Positions 1 to 48,800 of a stretch of 64,000 nucleotides of DNA are shown here, piece after piece. The notes beneath the pieces are model-generated. The model had not been told where the DNA came from and ran no database searches. It saw nothing but the letters and a program-made list of their open reading frames with translations. The stretch comes from Cucumis sativus (taxonomy: Eukaryota > Streptophyta > Magnoliopsida > Cucurbitales > Cucurbitaceae). The translations under genes and the position numbers were made by a program. Positions within the stretch are counted from its first letter, which is position 1, and each line of letters opens with the position of its first letter. Where the stretch lies: NCBI RefSeq assembly GCF_000004075.3, contig NC_026657.2, positions 30,660,408 to 30,724,407 of the forward strand, in the 5' to 3' direction.

Positions 1-3000
1 ACGTCCAACCTTAATAAAAAAAAAAAAGTTGAAATCCAATCACATACTTCAATCCAAAATTCTCTTCTCCTTTCTTATCTTCATCCTAAAATAGATAACT
101 TTCAACAACTAATTTGTAATTTTTCTCTTCCAATATATCGTCCATGAGCCTTACTCTCCCATTGCTTAGCTTTGTTACAATTGAATGCAAAGTACGACTT
201 GGTGTCTTCCATTAAAAACTTGTAGTCCCATCTCATACTTTAAACCAATCTCTATTCTTGTACTCTAAATTTTTTCCAATTTCACTTATCTTCAACCAAT
301 TTTGAACTTTTCAACCTTAGATCGAGTTATCTTAAGTGACTCTTAATTTGTTCATTTCCAAACTCTTCAACCTCAAACCTTAAACCAAATCTTGAAGAAC
401 AATTTCCATCCTTAAATCAAATTTCTCTAGTATTTAGTCTCTTAATTTGTTCATTTCTTGAACTCTTCAAATCAAATACTTTTATCCACAATTCTCTTAT
501 CCTTTCTTATCTTCGTCTTTATCGTGAAATAGATAACTATCAACAAACTAATTTGTCATTTTCATCATTCAATATATCGTCTATGGGTCATATAAGTACC
601 TTCACTCTCCCATTTCTTAGCTTCACTACCAATAATCTACAATTTAATGCAAAGAACAGCTTTGGGACTTCCGTAAAAAACTTGTAGTCCCATCTCATAC
701 CTTAAACTATTATCTATTTTTGTACTCTAAATTATTTCAAATTTCTCATATCTTCAACCAATTTTGAACTTTTCACCCATAGATCGAGTTATCTTAAGTG
801 ACTCTTAATTTGTTCATTTCCAAATTCCTCACTCAAATTTATACTCTTCAACCTCAAACCTTAATCCAAATCTGGAAGTCCAATATCCACACTTAAATTA
901 AATTTCTCAAATCTTTAGTCTCTAAATTTGTTCAAAATTTGGAAGTCCAATCTCCACACTTAAATTAAATTTCTCAAATCTTTAGTCTCTCTAAATTTGT
1001 TCATTTTTTAACTCTTCAACGTCCCACATTGATAAAAAAAAAAAAGTTAAAGTCCAATCAAATGCTTTTAACCATAATTCTCTTCTCATTTCTTATCGTC
1101 ATCGTGAAATAGAGAACTATCAACAACTAATTTGTCATTTCCTCTTTCAATATAAAGTCCATGAGTCATACAAATATTTCTAAGCTTCACATCCAATAAG
1201 CTACAATTTAATTGCAAAGAACATCACGAGGACTTCCATAAAAAAACATGTAGTCTCGATCTCATACTTTAAACAATTCCCTATTATTGTACTATTAATC
1301 TTTTTTCAATTTATCAACTCTTCAAACAATTTTGTACACCTCAACCTCAAACCAACTTATCTTTAAGTGACTCTTAATTTATTCATTTCAAAATTCTTCA
1401 ACCTCAAACCTTAATCAAAATCTTGAAGTCCAATTTCCATCCTTAAATCAAATTTCTCTAGTATTTAGTCTCTTAATTTGTTCATTTCTTGAACTCTTCA
1501 AACGTCCAACTTTCATAAAAAAAAAGCTGAAATCCAATCACATACATTAATCCAAAATTCTCTTCTCCTTTCTTATCTTCGTCCTAAAATAGATAACTTT
1601 CAACAACTAATTTGTAATTTTTCTCTTTCAATATATCGTCCATGAGCCTTACTCTCCCATTCCTTAGCTTCATTACAATTTAATGCAAAGTACGACTTGG
1701 TGTCCTCCATTAAAAACTTGTAGTCCCATCCCATACTTTAAATCAATCTTTATTCTTGTATTATTAATATTTTTCCAATTTATCAACTCCTCGCACTTAT
1801 TAGTTCATTTCCAAACTCTTCAACCAAATTTATACTCTTCAACCTCCAACCTTAATCCAAATCTTTGAACTCCAATTTCCAACCATAAATCAAATTTCTC
1901 TAATCTTTAGTCTCTTAATTTGTTCATTAACGTTCAACCTTAATCAATAAGTTGTAGTCCCATCTCATACGTTAAACCAACAATTTATAATCTTGTGTAT
2001 CTCGTATCTCTTAGGACGTGTTTGGGGTGGACTTGAGGGGAGTAGAGTGGAGTATTTAAGCCCACTCCACGTTTGGGGCATAGATCAAGCAAAAGGGGGA
2101 TTAGGGTTATTTTACTCCTCGTCACACACTGTTCCACTCTCTCAACCGGGTGTAACTCGAGACCACCATTAATTTTGTTTTCTCATAGTCGATCTCGACC
2201 GAGATCAACCCCAAAATATCTTCCCAAATTTAAATAACTCTTTGAAGAAAATTTCTCGATCTCCCTGCAAAGACATCTCTGGCAACCTTAGACCGAGATC
2301 ATACTAATTAGTCGACGTTCTTTAGCTCGAGACAACTTAGACCCAGGATCATACTACATTATCATATGTTCTTTAGCTCGTGACTATCTCAAGCCGAAGC
2401 CCCGAGCTAAAGAAGATGAAGTAATGTAGTACGATTTCGGGCCAAAGTTGGCCCTGAGATATAGCCCCGAGCTAAAGAACATAAGGAAATGTAGTATGAT
2501 CTCGAGCAAAAGTAGGCCCGAAATAGGCCCAAGAGAGACCAAGAAATTTCCGTCAAATAGTTTTATAATTTTGGAAAGAATCTCGAGGTCAATCTCGCCC
2601 GAGTTCGACCACGAGAAAAACAAAAATTTTTCAATTGTCCTAAGATGCACTCAATCGAAGGAATGAGACAGTGGGCGGCAAGGAATGGAACACAAAATAA
2701 GGGGTAAAATAGCACTAATCCCCCTTTTGCTTAATTCATGCCCCAAACGTGGAGTGAGCTTAAATACTCCACTCTACTCCCCACAAATGCAGACTATTAT
2801 AAAATCCATACTATTATAAGTCACTTCTCGCCCCAAACGCCCCCATAATTTTTCCAATTTATGAGCTCTTCAACCAATTTTGTACTTTGTTGTAATCCAA
2901 ATATTGATTAGGTCCCTTGAATTCAAATATTGAAGTCCAATCTCCAACCTTAAACCAAATTATTTGAAGCGACTCGTAATTTGTTCAATTTTCGAACTCA

Positions 3001-4150
3001 TCAACCAAATTTTATACTCTTCGACCTTCAAACCTTTAATCCAAATCTTTGAAGTATCTCCAACCTCAAATCAAATTTCTCTAATCTTCAGTGTCTCTAA
3101 ATTTGTTTATTTTTCGAACTCTTCAATCGAACATTAACGATTGATCCTCTTTAATCAAAAAGTTGAAGTCAAATCACATTCTTTAATCCAAAATTTCCTC
3201 ATCTTTATTTATTTGCCTTCATCATGAAATAAATAACTACCAACAAATTTTTGTTTTCCCATTTTCAAAATATAATCTCTAACATATTATGTTCCAAACA
3301 CAATTACTTAAAAGTCAATTTTATTCACTTCCCATCCAACAATCACCACCTTCATCCAAACAATGACATGTTGCCTTTCATTCAAAAAGTTGTATTCCAA
3401 TCTCATACTTCAAACCTAATTTTACCAACTTATGAACTCTCCAACCAATATTGTACTTTGTATACCAAAGTTTGGCTAGCCCCCTTAAATCCAAATGTCC
3501 AAGTCCATTCTCCAACCTTAAACCAAAATTCCTTCAACTTTTTGCCAAAATTACTTTATCGTTTGTACCTTGTAATTTGCAAATATTCTAAACTCTTCTA
3601 CTAAATAATTCTTTTTAATTCAAATAATGGCTGGACCACTGACATCAAATAGCATAAATAAAAGCGCATACTTTAATCCAAAATTCTCTTATCCTTACTT
3701 ATCTATATCTTCATCGTGAAATGGATAACTATCAACGACTAATTTGTCTTTTTCCTCTTTCAATATATCGTCCATGAGTCCTATATATACCTTTACTCTC
3801 CTATTTCTTAGTTTCACGTCATATTATCTACAATTTAATGAAAAGAACGGTTTGGTATCTTTCATAAAAAACTTGCAGTCTCATCCCATACATTAAGCCA
3901 ATCCTTATTCTTATATTCTTAATATTTTTCCAATTTAGCAACTCTTCAACCAATATTGTACTCTTCATAAAATATTATCTTATCCTTTCTAATCTTCGTC
4001 GTGAAGTAAATAACTATCAACCCTAATTTGTCTTTTTCCTCTTCCAATATATCGTCTGTAGTCTTATAAGTACCTTTACTCTCCTATTTCTTAGCTTCAC
4101 ATCCAATTATCTACAATTTAATGCAAAGAACGACTTGGTGACTTCCATAA
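1..4150. repeat. Degenerate AT-rich tandem repeat array
   Basis: A family of related blocks of about 440-580 bp recurs here. An anchor reading CAATATATCGTCCATGAG or a close variant starts near 131, 570, 1148, 1629, 3761 and 4045, with a more decayed copy near 3265. Each block also carries an oligo-A segment followed by GTTGAAATCCAATCAC, a TTCTCTTCTCCTTTCTTATC segment, and CTTGTAGTCCCATCTCATAC. Inside it, about 67 bp is duplicated head to tail at roughly 874-1007. The array runs off the left edge of the window, and no gene-like ORF is supported in it. The 61-117 aa ORFs found here are low-complexity translations of the repeats. Family identity is unknown to me. Confidence 0.8.
2014..2845. mobile_element. 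Fold-back / long terminal-inverted-repeat element (MITE-like)
   Basis: The left end (GTGTTTGGGGTGGACTTGAG, then GGAGTAGAGTGGAGTATTTA, then CCACGTTTGGGGCAT, then AAAAGGGGGATTAG) is found inverted at the right end (2713-2845). The inner arms are also inverted copies: TTCTTTAGCTCG on the left (about 2319 and 2368) pairs with CGAGCTAAAGAA on the right (about 2403 and 2467), so almost the whole 830 bp can fold back on itself. It interrupts the surrounding repeat array and has a higher GC content. There is no transposase ORF, so it is non-autonomous. Flanks are TTA on the left and TAA on the right, which is not a clean direct target duplication, so I cannot assign a superfamily. Confidence 0.75.
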
Positions 4151-4292
4151 AAAAAAAACAACAATCAAAGATATAATAGCAAAGTAAACATTTATAAGAT
4201 ATGAGAAATGTTTATAGAAAGTTATATAAAAACTAGGCAGAAGGAAGGCTAACCTTATTTTGAAGAGAAGAGTATAGTAAACTATATATTAC

Positions 4293-4535
4293 CTCACTCC
4301 CACAATTATTTTGAAGCCATCTTTTAAATACCTTTTAATATGTTTTTTAACATCAAATTTACATCCTCGAGCAAGGTTAACCTAAAGATAAAGAGCACCA
4401 TCATAAAAGGAACAAATAACTGGTTTATGATCAGTAGATAGTTGGAAATTGGAAACTCACCTCGATGAATCCATGACATAATGCCAAGTAGTCAGCCTTG
4501 CCAACGAACTTGAAAATTTGTCGAAAGAAGCACCG
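4293..4535 (-). pseudogene. Two-exon fragment of an MLO-family membrane protein gene
   Basis: On the minus strand, exon 4535-4461 (75 bp, 25 codons) follows a TTTCAG acceptor and reads RCFFRQIFKFVGKADYLALC then HGFIE, ending at a GTGAGT donor. Exon 4381-4293 (89 bp) follows TTTAG and reads VNLARGCKFDVKKHIKRYLK then DGFKIIVGV, ending at GTAATA. Together they match the conserved MLO stretch FFRQ..KADYL.L.HGFI...KFDF.KYIKR.L..DFK.VVG, which lies in the central cytoplasmic loop region of these seven-transmembrane calmodulin-binding proteins. I see no flanking MLO exons on either side, so this is an orphan fragment. The splice sites and frame are preserved, which suggests either a recent capture or lack of time to decay. 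MLO assignment is from family knowledge of this motif. Confidence 0.75.
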
Positions 4536-4687
4536 CTGAAACGAAACAACATACTTTAGGTGTTTCAAATCTCTATAGGAAAGCGATTGTAAGTATTATA
4601 AGTTTGAACCACACAATATCCATATCTCCATATTCTTCAAAACCATTTTTATTCTCAAATATGCTGCATAATATGTATAGTAGTGTG

Positions 4688-4731
4688 CTATGTATGTTGC
4701 AGTTTTTTACTATGTATGTTGCAGTTTTTTA
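4688..4731. repeat. Perfect 22-bp tandem duplication at a rearrangement junction
   Basis: The unit CTATGTATGTTGCAGTTTTT plus TA occurs twice head to tail at 4688-4709 and 4710-4731. It ends exactly where homology to the ABCG gene begins (about 4730), so it marks the breakpoint between the MLO-side and ABCG-side sequence. Confidence 0.9.
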
Positions 4732-5056
4732 CTGGCAAGAAGCACTTTCCCAACTGTAGGTTCATTAATTCTACTGTCTTTATTTTTCTGCATTAGGCAA
4801 AATATGCTTTTATGATGAAAAAAATAACAAATGACTAAATTTAATATTAGTTTTCAATTTATCCAAATCATTGTTGAGTTGAGATTTACCTTGCTCCATC
4901 TATCATCTAGGAACTCATTGATGCCAATGGCGTTTTGTCCATACATCATGGGAGACAAATAAAAGCCCCAAATCATCCATCGCTCAACATTATCTAATGT
5001 GCACAAAAGGAAAACCAAAAGTTGGCAAACAAAAATACTGGAATCTACTAAAGTAA
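4730..5056 (-). pseudogene. Duplicated fragment of the ABCG/PDR transporter gene (exon 9, intron 9, part of exon 10)
   Basis: This stretch matches 14610-14936 of the intact ABCG gene at about 98% by eye, introns included, so it arose by DNA-level duplication rather than retroposition. The exon 9 copy is 4993-4890 (104 bp, complete, reading [20 protein letters not shown] and so on, with one V to G change). The exon 10 copy starts at 4787 and is cut at about 4732 after 56 of 166 bp. On the other side homology stops at about 5056, after which retroelement-like sequence follows. The fragment cannot encode a transporter by itself. Confidence 0.9.
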
Positions 5057-5150
5057 CAGCATCTCAGAAATTGAAGATGATGGGGTTCGTCAGCGGCAGG
5101 AGAAGTCAGTTCCAATGGGTCAAGATCTCAACCCCAAATCTTAGATACCG
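5057..5150 (-). other. Retroelement leader-like sequence with weak primer-binding site
   Basis: Read on the minus strand from 5150, the sequence begins CGGTATCTAAGATTTGGGGT, immediately inside the inner end of the putative LTR. It resembles the plant primer-binding site complementary to initiator tRNA-Met (TGGTATCAGAGC), but with several mismatches. It is cut off after about 94 bp by the ABCG fragment. Confidence 0.35.
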
Positions 5151-6406
5151 TGTGAGATAGCCAGAAAAGAACGAAGCTACTGAAGATTCGGCTAGCGGGA
5201 TGACGGCGAAAGATGGTTAGGTGTTGAACGGCTCGACTGACGACGAAATCCGTGGAAGAAATCGGAGAGAGCAACGCCGATCAAGGCCGGTTGACCCTTC
5301 AAATCGGCCTGAAGAGTTGCGGTGCAGCGTGGTGATCGTCGTCCGGTGAGTCGAGCGGCGCAACGGAGGTCGGATTTCGGTGGGCGGTTCGTTGGCTGGC
5401 TTTTGTTAGTCGTAGGAAGACATTGCCTAGCCGTCGCCCCCTTAATCTTCACGAACTCTAACCAGACGACCCGTACCCGACTCGTTCCGTTTGAAGACTC
5501 CCAGATCGTGTTACTCAGATCCGCCGATCCGTTCGACAACGCTCAGTTCCCCTCAGATTCAACGACGCTCAGATCCGACGCCCAGTTCCGCGCTGCTCCG
5601 GTCCCCTCACCTTGAGGAGTAGCGCGAAAGGCAAAACCCTTTCTGGAGCAGTACTGAATAGTTCCTCGAGCTCTGTTGGACGCCACGCTGTAACTGCGAA
5701 GTTGAGCCTTGACCTCGCACACCGATATCGAAAGGGAAAGCTGTTCAATGAGCTTCGGAAGGCCGGCGACGGAGCTTCGGGGCCGGCTATAGATTCGGAT
5801 CTGAGATGGAAGAAGTTGCGGAGAGGATTTGAGAGGAGAAACCCTAGGTCTCTAAGACTCGTACATTCCAAATTTTCAAATTTTCAAAACATTTTGAAAT
5901 CAGTTATCAAATTTATCACACTTATAGACCGTTAAAGTTGAAATAGTGCTTGTTGTCCAAATTAACAAAAGCGGTCTTAGTCAATTTTTCATTCAATAAT
6001 TTAATACAAAATTAACTTCAATCACTATTATATTTTGTAGGAGTTCATGAACCAAACCAAAGCCTATGAAGACTAATATAATCAATTTCAAAATTTAAAG
6101 ATCAAAATAGGCTTTAAATAGATAGTATAATGATAGACCCACATAGGCCATAGTAAAGATGTATGTCCCTAGAGATAAGAATAGAGAAAGAAGAAAGAAT
6201 GATTGAGAGTTAGTTGGTAGTTTTCTATTGCGTGGGCCTTAGGAATGTGTTTATTTAAGTGAGGCCAAATATTCACTTATTCTGCTTAGTGTTTGCCTAT
6301 TTAAATATAGTAGGGCAAATGTATCTTTTTCTTGAATGATTTTGGTAAAGAATTCTCAACATAGAAGTGTGGAGAGATTGGGAAGCTCTCAAATCCTTCC
6401 CCAACA
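5151..6406 (-). mobile_element. Putative LTR of a truncated retrotransposon
   Basis: On the minus strand the block starts TGTTGGGGAAGGATTTGAGA at 6406 and ends GGCTATCTCACA at 5151, giving the TG...CA termini expected of an LTR, with a PBS-like sequence just inside. A TATA-like CTATATTTAAATAGG lies near 6300-6314. The part at 5190-5850 is much richer in GC than anything around it and contains overlapping ORFs on both strands (97-115 aa) that resemble no family I know; I treat them as non-coding. The second LTR and the internal coding region are not present in this window. A segment near 5915-5951 recurs at 10915-10951. Call rests on termini only. Confidence 0.4.
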
Positions 6407-6521
6407 ATTGATAAATAAAATTGTGGCTGAGCCTAGATAAAAAGAAAAGAAACGTATATTCATATTTGATTCTACAAATAAGCCAATGGTATAGTTGTGC
6501 ACAATTAATATTATAATGTAC

Positions 6522-9173
6522 CTTGAAGGTTTTATTATTCCATTAATATCTTTAAGTATCTGAATATTTTTCTTCTTGGATGGAGTCAACCCCGTCAACC
6601 CTAGACAGCTCTGTTTTTAAACCATTCAAAGTAAAAATAAGAAACATGAAAATTAAATGTATGATAGTTTGGGGTAGATGGGTATGTTGGACCGTTGGTA
6701 GAGCGTTGAAAAACGATATTTTAATTGATTAAGAAAGCGATTGAAATTTAATACAACTTTATTATAATGGTAATTGGCACACTTCTTCTTTAAGACTAAA
6801 GGTACAATTTCCATTTCAACAATTGTTGTACTTAAATAAACAAACAAGACAACACGATATAATTGGATTTCAAATTCAATATGTGAATTTGAAACTCACG
6901 ATCAATATATATAAGCTTTTATTATTATTCTAACTATGTTCAGATCGATCAAATGTTATTTTAATTATTTGAACAATTGTATGGTATTGTAATGACCAAA
7001 TAATCTTATTTTATTCTCTAATTTAGTAAACACAGTCTTTCGACTAATTTGAAGAATTGCACAAATCATACAAACTATTTACTGATGAAAGAAGATTCTT
7101 TTCCGATTTTTGTTCATTTTTTTAATGTTTTTTTCATATGGATTGATTCATTTTCATTCTATTTTTAAGAGTTTAAAAGGGTCTTTTTTTTAATTTCAAG
7201 AATCAAAGTCAAAAATACAAATACTAATGATTAATATTAAATATGATATTAATTTTGATTTTACTATGAATGCATAAATGACTTCTTTATCAAAAGGTCA
7301 AGTCTCATTTCTATTTCCTCGTGGTAAAATGTAACACATGTCATGTGAAAAAAAAAAGGTAGCTTATTGAGGTTAATTAATTATTTGCCAATTCAAGTTA
7401 AATTATAGATTATAATTAAATACAAACAATAAAATTTTGAGAAATTGTTTTAAGTCGCAATACCACTTGAAATAATTTTAAATATATCAAGGATATATAA
7501 AGTAAATATATATTATAAAAATCCAATATAACTATCTGGTCTTTGAAAAAATAAAATAAACTTTTGATCGTATGTTTCTACTGTTTCCATTTTTCCTAGT
7601 CAAATTTAGAAAATGAGAAGAAAAAAAATTCATAAACTATTTTTTTAATTTTAAAAAATTGTATCCAGTTATAGCAAAATTTTGGATTATATCAATGATA
7701 ATCTTCCATCACTATAGTATGTTAATGACTATCTATAATAGAATTTGTCAAGGGCCAGTAAATATTTTGTAAAATTTATTATTTTTTAAAATAGCTCGTA
7801 TGAGTATTTTAGATAATATATATTATTGTATAGATTATAGATATTAAATATATTTTGGATAATCAATATTTGTGTAAAGATAGGCAATATAATTATAAAT
7901 TTTTATCCACCAATATTCTATATAAAAACAAAAATGAAGTACTTAATTAAATGATAAAATGTAAGAGAACATTAATGTGGTCGTAAATTGCATTATATTG
8001 TTATATTAAGAAAAAATGTCAAAAATAGAAAAATTTCCTAAATATTTATGAATTTTGTCTCTTTTGCTTTTTTTATGGAATTTAATTGATTGTTTAACCA
8101 CTTAAAATAAAAACATATAAATATTCTCATCTTAATTAAATTATTATCATTTATTTCTAAAAGTAATTAATTAAAAAACTAACAATATTTTACTGATAAG
8201 ATAAAATATTGATGGTAAATGTATTCTTTTATTTTTGACATTTTAATGTTTATAAAAAGTTATCGTAAATTATTAAAAATATTTATAACCATTTGTATTC
8301 GATACATGTAACGGTCAATCTATCACATATATTATAAATTATTCTACTTCTAAATATAATAAAATAAATTAAATTTTACATCTGGTTAAATATAAATTTT
8401 GAAATTTTACTATATTATAAATATTTTTATTAATTTACTATAACTTTTTATAAACATTAAAATTAATTAAATATTGATAAAAAATATTTTTAAATATAAT
8501 AAAAAAATTAAAAAATTTTACAAAAATAATAATACATCATAATATGCTACCATCATCATTGTTCTCGTCTATTAATCTATCTCGATTTAATAGATGGTAA
8601 TGTTTTCAATATTTGTAAACACTTCTACAAATTTGATTGATTAAAATAAATTTTGTTTTTTTTTGTAGATATAGCCAAATGTAACTAATAAACTAAATAT
8701 ATTAAAACAATTACCTCAAAAGTGTTGAGTGCGACGTTGATCAAATTCGGGTGAGCTCTACTCCCGACGTAAACATCTCCTTCAACTGACAATTTCTCAA
8801 AACGAATTTCGATCTTTGGAATTTCAATCCCAACTCTGCAAATCAATCAAAATCCCAAACAAAATCAAATTTTCAAATCCCTGAACTCAACATTTCTCTT
8901 TCATTTTAGGTTTTAGGGCTTTTACCGATCCATTCTGTCTCTAATCCATCTCAGAAATTCCTCGTTATCTTCTTCAACAACCTTCACCATTCTTTCCATC
9001 AATCCTTTCCTCTCCTCAAAACCCATCCTCCTCACATCCACTTCATCGTAAACAACTCTCCCATTCTCCACCGCTTGTCGGAGCATTCCCTTACGCATCC
9101 GATCGTAAGTCGGAAGTCGCTCAATCGCCGCCCATAGGAGCTCTTCCTCGTCGTCCACTACAGTAGTCGCCAT
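6522..9173 (-). pseudogene. Truncated ABCG/PDR transporter gene, exons 1-3 only
   Basis: Exon 1 is 9173-8926 (82 codons plus 2 nt, starting MATTVVDDEEELLWAAIERL), exon 2 is 8835-8715 (121 bp) and exon 3 is 6610-6522 (89 bp, containing GLTPSKKKNIQILKDINGII). All three have intact splice sites and the same phases and, for exons 2 and 3, the same lengths as the intact paralogue at 10020-23123. They encode the cytosolic N-terminus that precedes the first nucleotide-binding domain of PDR transporters. Exon 4 with the Walker A loop and everything after it is missing; retroelement-like sequence and a small exon 9/10 copy follow instead. Splicing exon 3 to the exon 9 copy at 4993 would read AGA TAA, a stop at about codon 154. 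The product cannot be a transporter. The 2.1 kb intron 2 is AT-rich and featureless. Confidence 0.85.
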
Positions 9174-10019
9174 AGAATCCCTATTTCAGCGCAACAAAAA
9201 CCCTAAAGGAACAATGTGATAAAAAAAACGAGTCACGTTTCCGAAGATTCAATCTCCATCAAGAATATAAATATATATGTATACACAAACACGAAAAGCG
9301 ACGACATACACAGAATACAGTTAGTTACCAAGCATTCGCCGTTGAAGTTTCCGGTGAAAGTGAAACTCCGGTGGTCTGAGAACTGAGAAGAGGGCAGCTT
9401 AAATGGAAAATGAAATAGATAAGTTGTTTCGGAGTTGCGATCTGAAGATTCCATTTTAGCATCAGCTGAATGGGAAGAAGAAGAAGGAAGAATGCTTGTC
9501 ATCAAAATTTTCTCTACGAAATATAATATACTTTTTTTACGTTATTAAATTTCTGAAAGAGACATTTTAAAACATACAAAAATATTAATTTATTAAAAAA
9601 ATCACTTTTTAAAGTTATGTCATTGGGTAAATTTTAGTTAACATAGATTTTAATTTATAAATGTTTTGAATCACCCAATCTAAAGTCCAAACATACAATA
9701 ATATAATTAAAAAGCTAATAATATAAGCAATATGTCCATCCAACTATTTCCTAGCGGAGTGTAAAAACTTAATAGAGCAATAAATGGATATGTTTTAGTT
9801 GTTGAATCACAAGTGGACACAAAGCTAATATAATAGACGAAAAATAGCCTTTTCTTTGTATTTTTTTTTTTTATTAAATAGTCAAACTTTGTGAAAATAG
9901 GAACCGCTTTGTTTTCCTTTCCTCATTTAGTCACTCTGAAATAATTGATTTCCTACGATACAAAGGCTATAGTAAAAATGTAATAAACTACAAATTTCAC
10001 ATAACAAGTAAACGGTTGC
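9174..10019. other. Spacer between the truncated and the intact ABCG genes
   Basis: 9174-9530 is the upstream (5' UTR/promoter) side of the truncated copy on the minus strand; 9530-10019 is the likely 3' flank of the intact gene. It is AT-rich with an oligo-T run at 9862-9873. I see no coding exon. The 90 aa minus-strand ORF at 9233-9505 has no recognisable similarity. Confidence 0.6.
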
Positions 10020-13000
10020 CTATCTCCTTTGGAAGTTAAGATATTTGATTCCATAGGCAAACACAAAGATGAACACGAGAACCCAGATGAAATGTGCTGC
10101 AATCACGATGGGGATGAAGTCGTGTTCGTACCCGAACCCTTCTTTAAGGAACAACTTTAATCTTACACTGCCAACTCCTGGTATCTGAACAAGACTGTCT
10201 TTGTCACCAACCTGGGAAGCTACAATGCCATATATAGTCCAAGCCACAGGATTAGCCCAATAATACCACCTCCACCATACGGGGATTGCCTACAAAAGAG
10301 TTGGTTTAACCATGAGTTTGAGAAGTTGGAAAAATGATCAAAGATCGAAATATCGAGAATTTGGGCGTCATTTACCGGTCGAGGAATAAGAAAACCAGTG
10401 AACAAGTTCCAAAATCCAACAAAGAAGGACATGACAATGGCTGCAATGTGGTAGTTTGGAGTCAATGCTACAACCATCATCCCATACAGTGTGAAGTATG
10501 TGAAACACATAAAAACCAAGTAACAGAACAGCAGAAACTTCCCCAATTTCCACTCAAATCCAATCATGCTATAAATAATGAGAGAATAAATTATAGATTG
10601 AACAAAAACGTAGATGGTTTCAATTGCCACCTGCAAGAGAGAAGATTTTTTTTTTTAATTTGGGAAGCTAAGTCTTGAATGAATAAAGAAAGATTATATT
10701 CATCTTAAACTCAATATAGATATGATTAACATAATATTAAACCTAGCAGTATTATCTTTACCTCTTCCTATTTCTTACAAGAATACTATATGTTGGGTCT
10801 CGTGTTGCCCAAACATGATCAAGAGTTAGAAAATATACCAAAAACATTGAATGGTAGGTTCGAACAAAAAGTGATGGGCTCCAAATAGTATTCAATAGCT
10901 TTGGTTTCAAATTATCACACTTATAGACCGTTAAAGTTGAAATAGTGCTTTTGTAAGGAAGATTCGAGAGAGAATTTTATGTGATTGCAATAATTTTTCA
11001 CACTGTAACTTTTTTTCAATGGTTGTGGTTTTGCTCTAATGGATTTTTTCACGAAAATTATTGTGTTTCTTATCCTTATTGATTTCTCTATTATTTTTAT
11101 GTTTAATTTTGCAACCGTAATAATGAGTTTTTTTTCTCACCATAAACTTACATAGTTTATTAGATTTAGATTAAGCTTTTGGGTTTAGTTATGATTTGAA
11201 AGGGTGAATAGCTTTTGTCACCTGAGCAAATGCATACGGCAAAGCGGAATACATTCCGGCAGCTTTTTCTCGATAGAAGGCTGTTCTTTCAATAGCAACC
11301 ACAGACTGCACAGATGAAGCATTGCTAGCTCCAAGGAATATGATAGCAGAATAGATAGCACCCATAACATTCAACACATCTTGTTGCTTGGCTCTGTTGA
11401 AGTACAGAAAAGACACAAACATGTAAAAAAAATCAATAAAGTAGAATGTGACAGGCACACAAATTGCATAGGCCAATGAAGAAACCTTACAATATTTGTC
11501 CCTTGTTCCAGAAAACTAGACCAAATAAGATACCGACAACTATTGTACTGAAGAAGCGTATGGCATTGTATTGAGTGTGTCTCCAATAAGATCGATGTTG
11601 TTTCCAGAAACAAGCTCTGCATTGAAAGAAAAACGATTGCGAGTATTCGGTTGGGAAGTGTAGGTCTTTGGATCCAGGGGCAGGAGTACTAAGCTCCATT
11701 ATAAGTTCTTGATTCCGCCTGAAACAAGAATTTACAATGCTAAGAGAAAAAGAGGTGGAAATTCGAGCTGACACGTGAACTTAAAACTTAAAAGCACAAC
11801 CATGCATACCGATAAATGGGAGATTTAGCAAAAGTATCAGCAAAATCAATATCTAGTTGAGCCTCCATTGGAGGAGCAGTAACCTCAAGCATCCATGTAG
11901 CAGGATTCTTACCATTTTCAATCTTTGGAATCCCTGGAATAGCCTGCCATCAAACAGCCACTAAATTTAACACTTGGGTAGACAATGAAAACACACCCAT
12001 ACACAAAAATTATATCAACATAAGATTTCATCTCAAAGCCAATTGATAATGAGAGGATTAACTCATGTATCTTGTAAAGATGACAAGGTCTCTTATTCAG
12101 AATCATCAACATGTCTTCTTCAAAATGGCGTGCCTCTTTAGGTTGGTGTCTTGGGTCAAATCCCAATTTTGGACCGAATACCCAATTGGGTTTTGCTATT
12201 GCAGTTGTATTAGCTGATCTTTTTTAAGGCATTTTTTCGTGCATCATGTTTCTGCGCTTGCCAAGATCTTCATGGTCGTTAGATCTGTTACTGTCTGGAA
12301 AATATTTTTCTTTATTTGGTGCAGATTTTCAAAAGCGGCTTTCTGTTTTTGAGTCCGCAAGGATTTTCTCCCTTTACTGTGTTGTTTCATTTTGCTAACT
12401 TAAGGTTTTGTAGGGTTGCACAATTTTTAAGCAACAGTAAGGCTTCGCTATAGAGTCGAATGAACCTCGCTGTGAGGCTGTGCCAACCATCATTGGTGCT
12501 TTGCTGTGAAGTTCGTTGGTGCTCCTCTTCATCATAGAAGTTGTTGATTAAGTCCTTGCTTAGAGGAGTCTAAGTTTGCCTAGGTGAGAGGATTTTTGGT
12601 GTTTATTCCAAACCAGTGGTGAAAAGAATGCTAATGCATCTCGAGGGAATCTCAAGTATAGGAAAATCCTAAACTCTTTACCAGGAGTTGAGAGTCATTT
12701 TGGTGAATATCTAACATATAAATTCTTCATTGTAATCGCTTATCTCAAATTAGTAAAGTTCTTTTCATCGGGCACACTACCACTCGTTGTAGTTGTGGTT
12801 ATACCAAACTCGGATACCGATCTTTTTGTCTTAATCTATCTCTCTATTATTTTATGTTGTACTCATTCTCCACGACATTTGTGTTTGACTTGTGAGTCCT
12901 TAATTTATTAGATTCACCTAAATTCTGGATTTCATAAGCTCTAAAGATGATCTATCTCAAAATCAATTGGTAATGAAATAAATAATTTATGTGCTTTTCA

Positions 13001-16000
13001 ATGTACGATTTTCAGCATAAAAACCAAAACAAATATACTCACCTCGAAATATTCAATGAGTTTGCAAGATCGCTCACCAAGAGGTCCGGCATAAATCATT
13101 TGTCCACCACGTTTCATGAGCAATAACTACATTATTATGCATTGAAGTATAGAGAATTAAAAATGGTTTAGCGCTAAACAATCGTTCAGAGGCTGTTCAG
13201 TGGTACCTCATCAAAAGCTTCAAAAATGTCTATGCTTGGTTGGTGAATTGTGCATACAACGGTTCGTCCAGTATCAACTGTATTTCGCACGGTACGCATA
13301 ACAATGGCAGCAGATCTAGCATCAAGACCAGAAGTTGGTTCGTCCATGAAAATAATCGACGGATTAGCAACCAACTCCACTGCTATTGTCAATCTCTTCC
13401 TTTGTTCTGTTGAAAGACCATCAACTCCTGGTAGCCCCACTAAAGCATCTCTCAATTTATCTAGTTCTATTAGTTCCATAACTTCTTCCACAAACATCTA
13501 CATCAATGTAGAATAGCTATTCAATAAAACTTCAACCATATTCTGCATTAACTGGAAGCATAAAGCAGCAAGCGTTTCTAGTGGGAAATACCTTTCTTGT
13601 TTTGGTATCAACATTGGAGGAAAGGCGGAGCCAAGCAGAAAATAGGAGCGACTCATAGACAGTGACATGAGGCGAATGAATGTCAATTTGTTCACAGTAA
13701 CCACTTACTCTAGCAAAGGTTGATTGCTTCTTGGGATAACCAGAGATGTATATACTTCCTTCAATATAACCACTGGTCTTTCGTCCAGCTAATACATCCA
13801 AGAGAGTAGTTTTCCCAGCCCCACTAACACCCACAAGAGCTGTTAATATCCCTGGTCGAAAAGCTCCGCTAACATCTTCTAAAAGTTGAAGACGATCTTT
13901 CTCGACCCCATGCAGCTTCATTTCCTAAATTAATTGGAATACATTGATATAGTTTCAGTGCCTTCAAAACGACATTCATTAAAAAGTAAAAATTACAGCC
14001 TATTTAGAATGGCTTTCCAAGTGCAAACACCCAGAGAGCAAATCCAAATAGGTTATTTCAAACTTGAGTTAACTTACAGCAGGCATATCTACATAATAGT
14101 TAACATGGTTGAATGCAAGTGAAAGTGGCTGGAAAGGCAAAACCATTCCTCTTCTTTGCAATTGATCTAAATAAAGATTTGACAATTTTGATCGTTAGCC
14201 TATGATTTTTCTCTAATAAATATCATGGCTCTAATTAAAGGAAAGATTACTAGAAATCCAAAAGAATTTGGATTAAGCAAATCTTCCTTACGAAACTTAA
14301 ACCTTGTGCATTGACCGTATTATTTTTTCTTTTCTTCTTGTCTTCATCCGTGGTAATGAGAGCCTTTGCATCAGCAAGTGCTGAAAATAGCTTCAAAAGG
14401 TTCAGTACAGTTACGACAATGATAATGACAATAATCATCATTACTTAAATGGTCATTTCAAATTATTTTCTTGAATAAATGAAGGGTTGAGATGACTTAC
14501 GATTCAAGTAAGTCAAAGCTATTGTAAATAGAACGTTGAAAAGAAGGTTAAAGCCAAAAAGTGCTGCAACGCAAATCCAGTACCAACGTTCTTCCTTAAA
14601 GAAACCCCTACTGGCAAGAAGCACTTTCCCAACTGTAGGTTCATTAATTCTACTATCTGTATTTTTCTGCATTAGGCAAAATATGCTTTTATGATGAAAA
14701 AAATAACAAATGACTAAATTTAATATTAGTTTTCAATTTACCCAAATCATTATTGAGTTGAGATTTTACCTTGCTCCATCTATCATCTAGGAACTCATTG
14801 ATGACAATGGCGTTTTGTCCATACATCATGGGAGACAAATAAAAGCCCCAAATCATCCATCGCTCAACATTATCTAATGTGCACAAAAGGAAAACCAAAA
14901 GTTGGCAAACAAAAATACTGGAATATACTAAAGTAAAATGTTCAAGAGTTAAAATTTGTGTTCTGGAATCAACAAATAAAGAAAACAAAAAAAAAACAAT
15001 AGAGCGTTGACACACATCTATGTGTTACATCTACGGACAGAGGGAGAGGACAAATTTATCAAAGAGAAAATTCAAAATATATATCAATTATCAAATGCAC
15101 CACTCAGGGTAAAGTGTTTTATAGTGCATTTCTTTAGACTCTAAGGTTAGAATCATAGATAATGTAAAATTGGAAAATACAAATTTAAAAGCAAGACTCT
15201 GTACTTGGTTGTTCCATGCGTCAGATTTCAGATGCAAGACATTCCAATGATAAGGAAAACGAGAACAATCACTTACCTCTGTCAATAAGGAAACCTCCAA
15301 GCAATAAAACTATTAAAAGAGCAAAGGTTCCCAAAGTACTTGCTACAACTAGCGTTCTTCCAATTGCAGCCATGAGTCGAAATAGCGATAGAGCTGTTTG
15401 ATGAGTGGCAAAGAAGGCCAAAAATTGCTTGAAGAACCTAGAGTATGAATAGACAGGTAATTAAGTAAAGCTTGTTTTTGTTAACAAATGAAAAAGAAGG
15501 AAAGGAAATATACATACCTACTAGGAGCAGGAGCAAACCCGATCGTGTAATAAGTTAGAAGAGTCCATATTCCTGATTCTATGAAAGAGAGAGGAATTCT
15601 GAGGATAAATATAGGCAAACTGAATGCCCAAGCAGGATAGAACAAGAAATCCCTCTGTCTAAAGAACACTGGAAACCTGAAAATAGTGAGGGCCAATTCT
15701 GCTATTCCATTAAACATGACATTTATGAGACTGAAAAACAAGGCTCCAAGGAACTTGCTTCCACCAATGACAGTGCCCACTTTCATTTCAGTCCTTAAAA
15801 ACACAGTCATAGCAATGACGGACATGATGGTGATCTGGACCGTCTTAAAAACATAGACAAATGAATTTCGTTTCATTATCAGTACTTCTCTTGAATAGCA
15901 TGCCCTGAATAGCTCCCAGTTTGATAAACCATATTTCTCTTTGACTAATGCAGCTGGGTGAGCTTTAGATTTGTCATAAGGAACTTGGAGATCAGAGGTA

Positions 16001-19000
16001 AGTTGTTGACCAATGGTAAAAGATTTGAATCCCTGACAAAACTTAGAAACAGAAATGAATCTATATGGTTTGTTTTTTTTGAACCAGTATTGTTCTTGGT
16101 CCTTCTTTGATGTGACTTCTTGTAAGAAATCAGCAACTCCTTTCCTTTCTGGGCATCGAAACCCCATAAATTTAAAGAAGTCAAGGATTTTTTCTCTTGG
16201 ACCTTGGTACACGATTTGACCTTCGGAAAGAAGAATGATATCATCAAATAGATTAAAAGTTTCAGGAGCTGGTTGTAGAAGAGAAATGACCATTGTTACA
16301 TCCATTATATGAACCATTTGCCTCATGAACTTGCATATCTGAAATGTGGTAGAACTGTCTAAGCCTGTTGATATTTCATCCATAAAAAAAGCCTTTGCTG
16401 GTCCTACCAGCATCTCCCCTACACATATTTTTCCCATTCTTTTTAATTAAAATTTTGACACAAAACGGCAAAAAGAACATCGAAAAGGTGAAAACTGAAC
16501 ACGTTCTCAACCTGTAGTAAGACGTTTCTTCTGGCCTCCAGAGATTCCCCTCCTCATTTCATCACCAACTAAAATATCAGCACAAACTTCCAACCCAAGT
16601 ATCTGTTCAAAGTCATTCCCCCAAAATTGTCAAGAAATACAATTATTGAGATAGTTGTAGTCTCAATCCAACAACCTTCATAACGTTTTAGTCTCCTTAT
16701 ATTTATTTCATTTCTGTTCTGGTAAATAGTATTGGAAACAAATTGGATGTGCTTTTAGAAATGCAGTATTATACTAACTTCTCAAGAATTCAGTCTTTGA
16801 CAAAACTAATTGTTTAGTCTTAATGTGAAATATTCAGTTAAAATAGTAATAAACACTAACATGTAGATGAAAGTTGGCATAGTACAACTATACGACATAT
16901 CAATTTTAGCTTCTACATGATATTTATTTAAGTATTGATATAACTACATTTACGGTAACTCATCAACTTGAAATTCTAAATTGATTGGGGATTTGGCATG
17001 GTATTAGAGCAGAATATACTATATTTATACTCCTACAATGTTAGTTCCTTCCAATTAATATAAATTTCCACACGAGGAGTGTTCAATCAATTGACATAAT
17101 TAACGTTAAAAATCACAGTGTTCTTTAACTTTTACAAAAGTAACAATTTAGTTCATGGACTTTAGTTTGTACAATTTAGTCTCTATGCTTTCAATTTTAT
17201 GACAATTTAGTTCTCAAACTTTATTATGTAACAATTTAGTCATTGTACTTGATTTGCAATGATTTAATCTTTATTGTAGAAATTAGTGTTAAGATTCAAT
17301 AACATTCCTTGCATAAATAAATCGATAAACAAAAATTAGCAATTCAATATTTTTACAAAATAAAATGTCTACATCATCATAAAATAACATAAATTGACAT
17401 CTAATTTTGACGATTTTTTTCTAATGTTAGAGACTAAATTGTTACTTTCATAAAAATTGAAGGACAAAAAGTATTTTTTAACCATTACCGTAATCCAACA
17501 ACTTAAGTTTTTGGTACTACAAACCAGTATACAAACATACAAACGTATTAGGAGAAATGAAAGAGTAGTTGAAAGTGCTAACCTTGAGAATGTACTCTGT
17601 AACCAAACTTGCTTTTTGGCCTGAAACAGAGATAGCTTTCATGAAAGCATCAATCTCAGGATCTGGCTTAATACCTGCTTGTTTCTCTCTTCTTGTAAGC
17701 TCAGCCATAAGTTGATATCTTGTGCCAACTCCCAAACAACGACCGGAGAAATCTAACGACTCTCTCACTGTCATCTCTCCACAATGAAGGTCGTGTTGAC
17801 TGATATAAGCACAGGTTCTTTGAGGCACAAACTCATGCATTTCATGCCCACAGTATGTCACTTTCCCACTTTCCTATTAACATTTTCAATATCGTTATAA
17901 TTTTCCTTTTGTACTTCCAACTTATCATTCTCAACCCTCTCAACTTTCTAATATTTTATTTAGTCATTTAACTTTAAAAAAAAAAGTGTTGATTGTCAGT
18001 TGATTCTTTTATTGTTTACTTTAACAAACGAACTCACCCTATAGGCGCCTCTATGCGTAGATATTTAATGCTTACGTTTTTCTAGTTTTCTTTATTTTCG
18101 TTTGAATTAGCTTTGAAATTAAAAACTTTACCTATCACACAACTTTAAATAGCATAAATCAACTAGTTTACGGATATACTCTTAACTAGAGGTTGTAAGT
18201 GTGAATTTCACTCTTATACGTTGAAACTGAGAAAAATATATACAAAGATCAACACTTATCCATCAGATAAACCAACAAAAGATACACATGCTTAGGTTGG
18301 ATTTTTATTAAATAATTTTCCTTTAAAAAAGAAAATTATTAAAACAGTGTTTTTTTATTCCCTTTTTTACCCAAATAGAATAAACATGAAATTTAACAAG
18401 ATATGCCTAAAACAAATAGTGGTTATGATTTATTTTAAAAATCATTATTGAAAGAAAAAAAAGATATAACCAATGCATTGAATTTAAAACCTTTAAATTT
18501 TTGTCAAGTTTCCCAGCAAGTGCCAACAACATGGTAGTTTTCCCACAGCTTGGAGGACCCAAAAGTAATGTCATCCTGAAAACAAGAAATTAATATCAAA
18601 ATTCAATACACCAAACAGCATTGGAAGAGATAACTTTTAGTATGAAGCCACAGTTATCCAACTCCCGTTGTTCACACTGCAAAAATGCCTTCATAAATAT
18701 TTTTTTAATATCGACTGGCAAGTAATAAATAAAGATAGTATGAAAATTTTCTATATCAAGTACAGAACATATTAAAGTGTGAAAATAATTTAAAGAGTAA
18801 AGAAGTTCCTCTTTCTATCTATTCTTAGTACAATCATCAAATTTAAGAATTTGAATAACTAGAAGAAAAAAAAGAAGTTAGTAGAAAGAGAAGCAAAAAT
18901 TACTCTACATTTATACTAAATGAAAATTCACATTAACCATGTAAAAGTTAGTTATAGCTTGTTTAATGTTGTGTTTTTGTTCATGGAAACTATTTTAGTT

Positions 19001-45873: not shown

Positions 45874-48800
45874 ATGGAGGTTCACTCTCAGCCCCTTTCC
45901 ACATCCTTGAACCACACTTCATTTCCACACTCTCTCAACTCTTCTGCCATTTACGATCCTCCTTCTGAGAATCATCAATCCTCTTCCTCCGGCAACTCTC
46001 CGGTCATCGGTACTTCAGAAAGTGACGCCTTCGAAATGCCTTTCTCATCCGACGGCGACCCCTTACCGACCCAAATGGTCAACAGAGATGGTGGCGATGA
46101 CCTGGGGCTCGCGGCATTGAAGCTGCAGAAAATGTACAGGAGCTACCGGACCCGACGACTGTTGGAGGATTCTGCTGATCCTCCTTCTGAGAATCATCAA
46201 TCCTCTTCCTCCGGTGAGTCTCCGGTCATTGCTACTTCAGAAAGTGACGCCTTCGAAATGCCTTTCTCATCCGACGGCGACCCCTTACCGACCCAAATGA
46301 TCAACAGAGATGGTGGCGATGACGTCAACACAGCACTGCAGCTCTCGGCAGTGAAGCTGCAGAAAGTGTACAGGAGCTACCGGACCCGACGACTGTTGGC
46401 GGATTCCGCCGTCGTAGCTGAAGAGCTCTGGTAAAAGAAAAATTGATTTCAATTTTTACTTTCTAGTTATGTTTTCTTTTTTCTAACTGAAAATTAGTTC
46501 ATAGAAATTTGAATTTTCTGATGGCCGTGAATTTTTTTTTTGAAGGTGGCTTGCGTTAGACTACGCTAGATTGAATCACAGTACGATTTCTTTCTTCAAT
46601 TACTTGAAACCTGAAACGGCTGCTTCCCGCTGGAACCGAATCACTATGAATGCTTCGAAGGTGAGATTTGTGAGCTTTTTATTACTTCACATTTATGGAT
46701 TTGGAAAGGGGTTCTGATGGAATAATTTGAAGTTGTTTTGGTAGGTGGGAAAAGGGTTGTCAAAGGATGCTAAAGCTCAGAAACTTGCTTTTCAGCATTG
46801 GATCGAAGCTGTAAGTGGAAGCTTAGTTGGAAAATCTCAAGAACAATATTGGGTTTTAATATGTTGCTTTTTTTCTTTTTCCTGTTCAGATTGATCCTAG
46901 ACATAGATACGGGCATAGTTTGCATCTTTACTATGAAGAATGGTGTAAAGCTAAAGCTGGTCAGCCATTTTTCTACTGGTAACGGCTTTTGTTCTAATGT
47001 TTCATTCTGTAGGATCTTTGTCTTTCTTTTGATATTTTTCTGAAATATTCCTGGGTTCTGAATGGTAACTTTGAAAAGTTTTGGGTTTCATATTCTATTT
47101 AGTTCTTAAACTTTTGCTAAGTATCATCATTTATTTTGATCCTCATGTTTCGTATGTTAATGATGGTTACATTTTGCACATGAATAAGTTTCCTACAAAA
47201 ATTGCTGACACTTCGGTTTGGCTAGTTTGTTTGTATCTTACACACTCTTGCACTTGCTGGATACATATCAAACATTTATTACTGCAATTGATTTGTTAGA
47301 GACTAATTGTACAGAGTCAAAGTAGGTACAACAATTGTTAGACATGTACACTCGTTTAAGTATACTAAATGTAATAGACACATGTGACAAAAATAAAATT
47401 TGAGAGCAGATATATCAAAATAATTTTTAAAGCATATAAATACCCAAACACATTAACATTTGAATTTCCATTATTGTATTAACCTGATGTGTATTTTTAA
47501 AATTCTATATTTTAGAATATAATGTGTCAGTCATGTATATTATATCCGTGTTCTATATATATGTTTGGCACATGGGGTGTTCTGATTATATAAAGTAGTC
47601 TTTGAGTATGTGTAACTTGTGTTTGGTCTGTGGGTTTTGTAAAGGTTTTTATGATGCAAAATAAAAGTTGGATTTCATAAGCCCAAGTTCATATCACATA
47701 GTTTTATGCAGCACAGGGATTTCAAAAACCAAACTCGACCTGCACTAAGTAAACTCATAGGTGCGCCGGCGAACACCTTTTAACTCTTAAGATTCTTGTT
47801 AAAAGAAATTCAAGGAATAAAAGTCTTAAGAGGAGGTTTTTACAGTGGCTAGATATGTAAATCAACACATTTGATTTGAAAGTAGAAGATCATAGGATTT
47901 TAAACTAAAGTTTTATTCACTTATGGAATACGGTGGCTAGACATGTAAGCTTGCACATTTGATATGTTCAACTAGAATTTGATTTGAAAATTGATCGACT
48001 ACCTAGAATTTGGATTCGAACTTTCTATCTTCTTGGCTTTCATCTCCTTGAAGTTGCAACTTTATTGACATAACTATTTGAAAACCTTGTCTTAATTGCT
48101 GTAACATGCATGAAAACTTACAAAACTTGCGGTGAATAATGTATGATTTTCATTCATGGTGCAAATAAATTACTGTTGAACTAGGCTCACTTTGATTTAT
48201 CGTGATTTACTTCTACTGAACTTAAATTTACGTCTCATTGCCAAAGGGAGTTTCTTCAAATCCTCACAACTTATCTGAACTTTTTTTGTTATTCAAACAT
48301 TGCAGGCTTGATGTTGGAGAAGGAAAAGATGTTGACCTTAAAGAATGCCCAAGATCGAAACTCCGGCAGCAAACTATCAAGTATCTTGGACCTGTATGTC
48401 GCCTATTGATTAATATTTGAAGCAGTTTCAAGTCAAAACTCATTTTGACAGAAAATGATTTCGATTTTTGATGCACAGTCTATAAAGTTTCCAACCCAGT
48501 TTAAATTTCATCCTAACATGGTTTCTTTCATGGTGCCCTTTTCACTTATTAATATCAGCAAGAGCGAGAACACTATGAATACGTCGTTGTCGATGGGAAA
48601 ATTGTCCATAAACAAAGTGGAACTTTCCTTGATACAAAGCGAGGACCAAAAGGAACGAAGTGGATATTTGTAATGAGCACTTTGAAGAGGCTTTATGCTG
48701 GTGAGGTAAGGATGCAACCTTGAAACATAGTCCTCATTGTTGTACTCTTCTAGTTCTACTTATTTAATTACCTAAGGCACAACTCCATTTCAACCGTAAA

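Follow-up and report, generated by a model that had tools for sequence, protein, structure and literature searches.

Probable stacking of host exons in the 5' leader of a plant LINE: a chain of pieces from six loci in the cucumber genome

It has long been asked by what route LINEs replace the leaders and promoters at their 5' ends. Capture of host exons through splicing is already known from the sources consulted in excerpt, involving single genes in human L1 and successive layers in primate SVA elements. For instance, chimeric insertions of human L1 carry 5' exons of MAP3K13, FHIT, PALLD and CREM, with the parental L1 absent from the source genes in 15 of 17 cases, according to the sections available of Law and Burns 2026 (PMC13174262). 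Similarly, SVA_F1 and the chimpanzee pt_SVA_D6 each acquired a first exon by splicing, from MAST2 and STK40 respectively, and many SVA members have additional 5' transductions that include exons of eight other genes (Damert 2018, PMC6139936, in part). In plants, L1-like machinery mobilises host mRNA, giving rise to retrocopies (excerpts of PMC4838847).

The window analysed here is a stretch of 64,000 nucleotides of the cucumber (Cucumis sativus) genome, C3:30660408-30724407, which was compared with a 226.6-Mb assembly in 88 contigs. At 5055-5837, on the minus strand, it contains a GC-rich chain whose traced pieces come from six loci, spread over five chromosomes. To judge from its sequence, this chain is the 5' portion of an L1-like LINE. 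We consider it likely that the leader of this LINE lineage grew by repeated exon capture, through the splicing and retrotransposition of chimeric host-LINE mRNAs. As in the available account of human L1 chimeras, host 5' exons end at splice donors and are fused in sense to the 5' end of a LINE with a target site duplication (TSD) and poly-A; unlike those chimeras, which carry exons of one gene each, the cucumber leader chains six loci, shows further addition in the window copy and is carried by a plant LINE (PMC13174262). The layering of captured exons is shared with SVA as described in the excerpts seen, although SVA is non-autonomous and hominoid-specific, whereas the carrier here is an autonomous-type LINE with ORF1, endonuclease and reverse transcriptase domains, and the cucumber chain is deeper (PMC6139936). 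The plant L1-like retrocopies, in the passages available, differ in being single-gene copies and not LINE leaders (PMC4838847). In the literature searched, mostly papers outside subscription and in part excerpts, no plant LINE with a leader chained from several genes was found. The history of capture in this lineage can be read from its chain of host pieces, and the sisters differ in the layer that comes next; cucumber accessions can be resequenced, making parental insertions searchable; and exons of unrelated genes can be joined by LINEs.

The sources of most pieces, and the donor edges at which they end, could be read directly from genome matches, and are given here from the outermost inward on the minus strand. 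The outermost captured exon (5801-5837) matches C1:21524000-21524036 at 100%, with the donor CTCAG|gtatct in its source; in the window copy it is joined to ATCCGAATC, and it is absent from the sister element on C2. Next is a captured exon (5722-5802) from C2:1518837-1518917 (96%, TTCGG|gtaaat), the source of which lies before a 677-aa ORF with hAT domains and is hence described as part of a hAT-transposase-derived gene. A short segment at 5684-5721, from which a 33-base pattern allowing up to three mismatches was found genome-wide in the window copy and C2 alone, separates this exon from a piece (5638-5683) identical to C7:17738940-17738985 (100%, GAAAG|gtgaac). This is followed by a 32-bp piece (5609-5640) matching C5:24821531-24821562 at 100%, the donor of which, TCAAG|gttcat, lies 2 nt inside the end of the match, and the source of which reads gttAG|GGTTTT at its start, and by a piece (5426-5608) from C3:26313918-26314100 (97%, GCTAG|gtcaaa). 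A 37-bp segment at 5390-5426 likewise gave no source, a 27-base pattern with up to three mismatches being found in the genome at the window copy and C2 alone. Innermost are exon B (5131-5389; C1:27641634-27641892, 97%, TTGGG|gtaaaa), its source lying upstream of, and on the same strand as, a PRELI-domain ORF; exon A (5063-5133; C1:27640613-27640686, 96%), with donor TCTCAG|gtgaac and acceptor tgaag|GTTGAG in the source; and the first eight bases of exon C (5055-5062), from the same C1:27.64 Mb locus.

A single locus (C1:27.640-27.642 Mb) is the source of exons B, A and, in the C2 copy, C, which follow one another in order and with the introns removed. AG acceptors are present at several joins (C5:24821531, the hAT exon and the LINE of the C1:8.06 type) and absent at others. 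On the strength of the splice signals and ORFs, we infer that the captured pieces were exons and that the genes supplying them are expressed. Part of the C3:26313918 piece also has a copy, at 91%, in the C5:15238442 region (L043, 1501-2947); it immediately precedes a pol reading frame of copia-like appearance, identified by eye, that has the opposite sense. Beside the leader, a 50-bp stretch at 5907-5956 is repeated at 96% at 10907-10954, in the region of an ABCG gene.

The sole near copy of the window leader is C2:13529697-13530444, aligned over 748 bp at 98% with 17 mismatches. There the leader chain runs into a LINE of 6,892 bp (C2:13529596-13536487) encoding DUF4283 (ORF1), Exo_endo_phos, RVT_1 and zf-RVT domains in interrupted frames. 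This sister ends in a poly-A tail, directly visible together with an exact 17-bp TSD (C2:13529579 and C2:13536488), of which the first two As could belong to the tail. A start of the element at AGATCTG was ruled out, as the TSD places it around 100 nt further out; the outermost 82 bp correspond to C3:3012207-3012288 (99%), without a splice donor. The body of the C2 LINE has no match in the window, where the leader stands alone with none of the LINE domains. The window's junctions may have arisen from a mis-join in the assembly; however, the leader has an exon that the C2 copy lacks and departs from that copy at 17 of 748 sites, and is therefore not simply misplaced C2 sequence. The initial annotation was correct in placing a retroelement leader-like piece at this position, although the piece proved to consist of host sequence and to be the 5' leader of a LINE, rather than that of an LTR element.

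Among the 25 matches listed, the family to which the sister belongs has 19 loci with an ORF1 start, once double rows had been merged and those of the window and source pieces left out. The 5' sides of 18 of these (all except C4:21.86) were read by eye: 13 have a simple GA-rich leader, three (C6:10.04, C7:9.52 and C5:15.71) lack one, and two, C2:13.53 and C5:20.06, have captured leaders. In the C5:20.06 sister, the hAT exon, with an internal deletion, is followed by a chain different from that of the window and C2, made up of a segment of 64 nt, in which a stretch of 47 nt starting at an AG matches C4:19495118, and of a 435-bp piece that shares 98% identity with C4:7528163-7528597 and ends GTG|gtaagg. 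The LINE part begins where the sister at C1:8.06 reads ACCAG|CTCCTC, with 97 bp identical, and the 3' end has an A-run and TTGACG as a TSD, just six bases beyond the As. For the outermost 44 nt, no source was present among the matches listed. The C4:19495118 sequence (L068, 266-316) is itself a repeat, found in seven places besides C5:20.06, with a pyrimidine-rich tract and AG preceding MEVKSCK...; perhaps it is the ORF1 start of another LINE family, caught in the C5:20.06 chain.

Across the three sister elements, a GT lies at the edge of eight of 12 traced piece ends, counting those within 0-2 nt of the end of the match, when 1.8 would be expected from random positions in the same loci (exact P = 6e-5). 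Eight such ends were reached in five of 100,000 simulations, and the donor-consensus score in none of 100,000. The four ends without GT are those of exon C, C5:13374167, C3:3012207 and C4:19495118. With two same-gene joins removed, six of the ten between-source ends have GT (1.5 expected; P = 0.0012), as do five of eight in the window/C2 chain alone (P = 0.0024). A first version of the test, using one copy per piece, found GT at six of 12 ends, with two ends unanchored (P = 0.016); the later versions used the best-preserving sister for each end, a choice made after the first result had been seen.

These figures bear on two other ways in which such a chain might have been assembled. Pieces as small as these, drawn from several chromosomes, and repair-like joins at 4714-4740 and 5055-5058 could indicate a patchwork made at the DNA level, through repair of a double-strand break with several templated filler insertions or through a Pack-type DNA transposon collecting fragments. 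However, such a process would account neither for piece ends coinciding with splice donors above chance nor for three consecutive exons joined without introns; the C2 sister, a LINE, has both a TSD and a poly-A tail; and no inverted repeat of at least 60 nt, the minimum searched, brackets the leader piece. We regard a DNA patchwork as very improbable, and the transduplication of DNA that the initial annotation proposed as the route of capture gives way to splicing of chimeric mRNA and retrotransposition as the most likely one. Alternatively, reverse transcription might have switched templates between mature mRNAs and LINE RNA, with no chimeric pre-mRNA being spliced. This fits the 82 bp that lie farthest out in the C2 sister (C3:3012207-3012288), which lack a GT, as do three other ends, but stopping at exon ends in six of ten joins is not expected of exchanges between mature mRNAs, and template switching is accordingly judged unlikely.

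If splicing and retrotransposition of chimeric mRNAs is accepted as the preferred reading, host pre-mRNA could have been joined to LINE RNA in trans, or a LINE could have been inserted in each host gene. Trans splicing, a possible sub-case, has been proposed for human L1 in the available text of Law and Burns 2026 (PMC13174262). No LINE body was present in the donor stretches compared (0.6-10 kb each), the sole LINE trace in them being a 98-bp LINE 3' end in one (L022), at a distance of over 4 kb from the piece that was captured; no donor locus coincides with any of the 19 LINE loci with an ORF1 start; and the same exon of the hAT gene occurs in two different chains. Against this, parental insertions that have since been lost would look alike, the donor flanks compared are short, and the cut in exon C does not lie at a splice position, as would be expected of insertion inside an exon; this cut argues for at least one insertion in cis. 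A broader suggestion, which we offer as a rather doubtful conjecture, is that serial trans-splicing of host first exons allows a lineage of plant LINEs to renew both promoter and leader, needing no insertion in the donor gene, with the leader exon of the hAT-derived gene as a preferred donor in two independently built chains.

Under serial capture, a LINE transcript would gain one or more host exons by splicing from a host donor to an AG near the 5' end of the element; the chimeric mRNA would be reverse-transcribed and inserted elsewhere, giving a new element that begins with host exons; and later rounds would stack further exons in front of the earlier ones. The window and C2 copies have five source loci in common, in an identical order, the sixth (C1:21.52) being found in the window only. 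The window copy has one extra exon (C1:21524000) spliced on in front; at this point the C2 copy is extended by other sequence, which was apparently not spliced on. Of the differences from the five sources, over 643 sites, nine are common to window and C2, ten are found in the window only and six in C2 only; the nine shared changes imply that the chain was assembled once and then copied. None of these falls in the three outer pieces (0 of 159 sites), compared with 9 of 513 in the inner ones, a trend towards older pieces inside that has the direction predicted by serial capture and is not significant (p = 0.13). We infer the order and number of the rounds, the precedence of splicing over reverse transcription and the deletion of the LINE body. 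The window copy would later have lost everything 3' of the leader, presumably by end-joining, and the leader would have become joined to a shrunken MLO/ABCG duplication block: it ends after eight bases of exon C, meeting the ABCG fragment at AACA (5055-5058), which is common to exon C and the C7 copies of that fragment. The window copy's own 5' end was sought and not located, and with its 3' end missing it shows no tail or TSD of its own.

The adjoining sequence has a different history. Window 4200-4714 is an MLO gene fragment on the minus strand, with two exons (4461-4535 and 4293-4381) that were correctly recognised as MLO-like by the initial annotation: both are flanked by AG and GT on reading the sequence, the first matches Pfam Mlo above the cut-off (1.1e-6), the second matched no Pfam family when searched alone, and 4262-4628 aligns at 86% to C6:28197230-28197596. 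Around the latter, six Mlo matches follow one another in order (C6:28195321 to 28199476), making this locus a candidate for the matching MLO gene whose search had been recommended; no MLO gene continues to the left of 4293, where a repeat array lies. Copies of the fragment are found on C7 (13153609, 13163434 and 13168572; 97-99%), on C3 (C3:30648290, 95%; C3:31651690, 88%) and, besides C6:28197230, in three tandem units at 23.03 Mb on C6 (84%). The following fragment, at 4730-5058 on the minus strand, consists of ABCG exon 9, intron and part of exon 10, as had been claimed: 4730-5056 is 97.9% identical to window 14609-14936 and 96.9-97.5% identical to four C7 copies, with variants common to both gene 2 of the window and the C7 copies, and its ABC2_membrane match is weak (1.1e-4, below the Pfam cut-off).

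MLO and ABCG fragments recur at C7:13.153-13.176 Mb beside the same repeat array as in the window, in the order array, MLO fragment, around 570 bp and 3.2 kb of ABCG sequence, in direct and inverted copies; the ABCG stretch C7:13154691-13157854 is 96% identical to window 13281-16425, and C3:30647943-30649780, to the left of the window, is 94% identical to C7:13153278-13155062. As this MLO-ABCG order is found on both C7 and C3, the pairing is that of an older duplicated block and not a capture at this place, and by sequence window 4200-5058 is a trimmed copy of it. Here the MLO fragment is directly followed by just 319 bp of the C7-type ABCG stretch, around 1.9 kb of the C7 block (C7:13154124-13156027) being missing, and a 22-bp tandem duplication (4688-4733, from self-comparison) marks the join; none was reported at the C3:30648290 copy. 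The missing 1.9 kb, the 22-bp duplication and the 4-bp microhomology at 5055-5058 fit repair-type joining, so this part of the initial annotation suits the last steps; capture of gene fragments by a retroelement applies to 5055-5837 and not to the MLO and ABCG pieces of a block duplicated on C7 and C3.

The array at window 1-4154 is a diverged set of direct repeats, a related array lying beside the MLO copies on C7, C3 and C6:23.03 Mb, and includes a 92-nt inverted repeat (2028-2119 and 2700-2791, 89% complementary, 580 nt apart). At C7:13153277-13178093, array, MLO fragment and ABCG fragment form multi-kb direct and inverted repeats, adjoined by a more diverged ABCG stretch (C7:13179359-13182153, around 74%), and at C6:23024321-23040398 repeat array and MLO fragment together form a unit of 5.1-5.8 kb that is present three times in tandem, the units being around 93% alike. 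To the left of the window, C3:30649628-30657947 is an 8.3-kb array of a 151-bp unit, with copies more than 99% alike; window 13498-13652, within the ABCG gene, matches this unit at 98%, and the array is apparently a young satellite derived from a gene fragment. Gene 2 also matches the truncated ABCG gene 1 (6516-9185) at 8922-9156, 8706-8842 and 6516-6640 (81-83%).

The third component, at 6130-6431 on the minus strand, is from its genome matches an old dispersed LTR-like repeat, to which at least 22 of the 41 matches listed belong, at 77-83%. It can be read as TG...CA on that strand, yet matches run past the CA end to 6431-6442, so the putative LTR is described here as a dispersed LTR-like repeat; no TSD was seen by eye, and an LTR pair examined at C1:9.28 Mb led to no LTR assignment. 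The pieces of the proposed mosaic are therefore real, with three separate histories: a duplicated block, a LINE leader and an old repeat. We rejected the idea that one mobile element extends over MLO, ABCG and LTR, as the whole block (4200-6500) occurs once among the matches scored and its parts have separate copies, sub-blocks recurring where copies of the unit had been envisaged. Elsewhere in the window, 45955-46409 contains short repeats in direct orientation, 147 and 74 nt in length, that are 91-96% alike.
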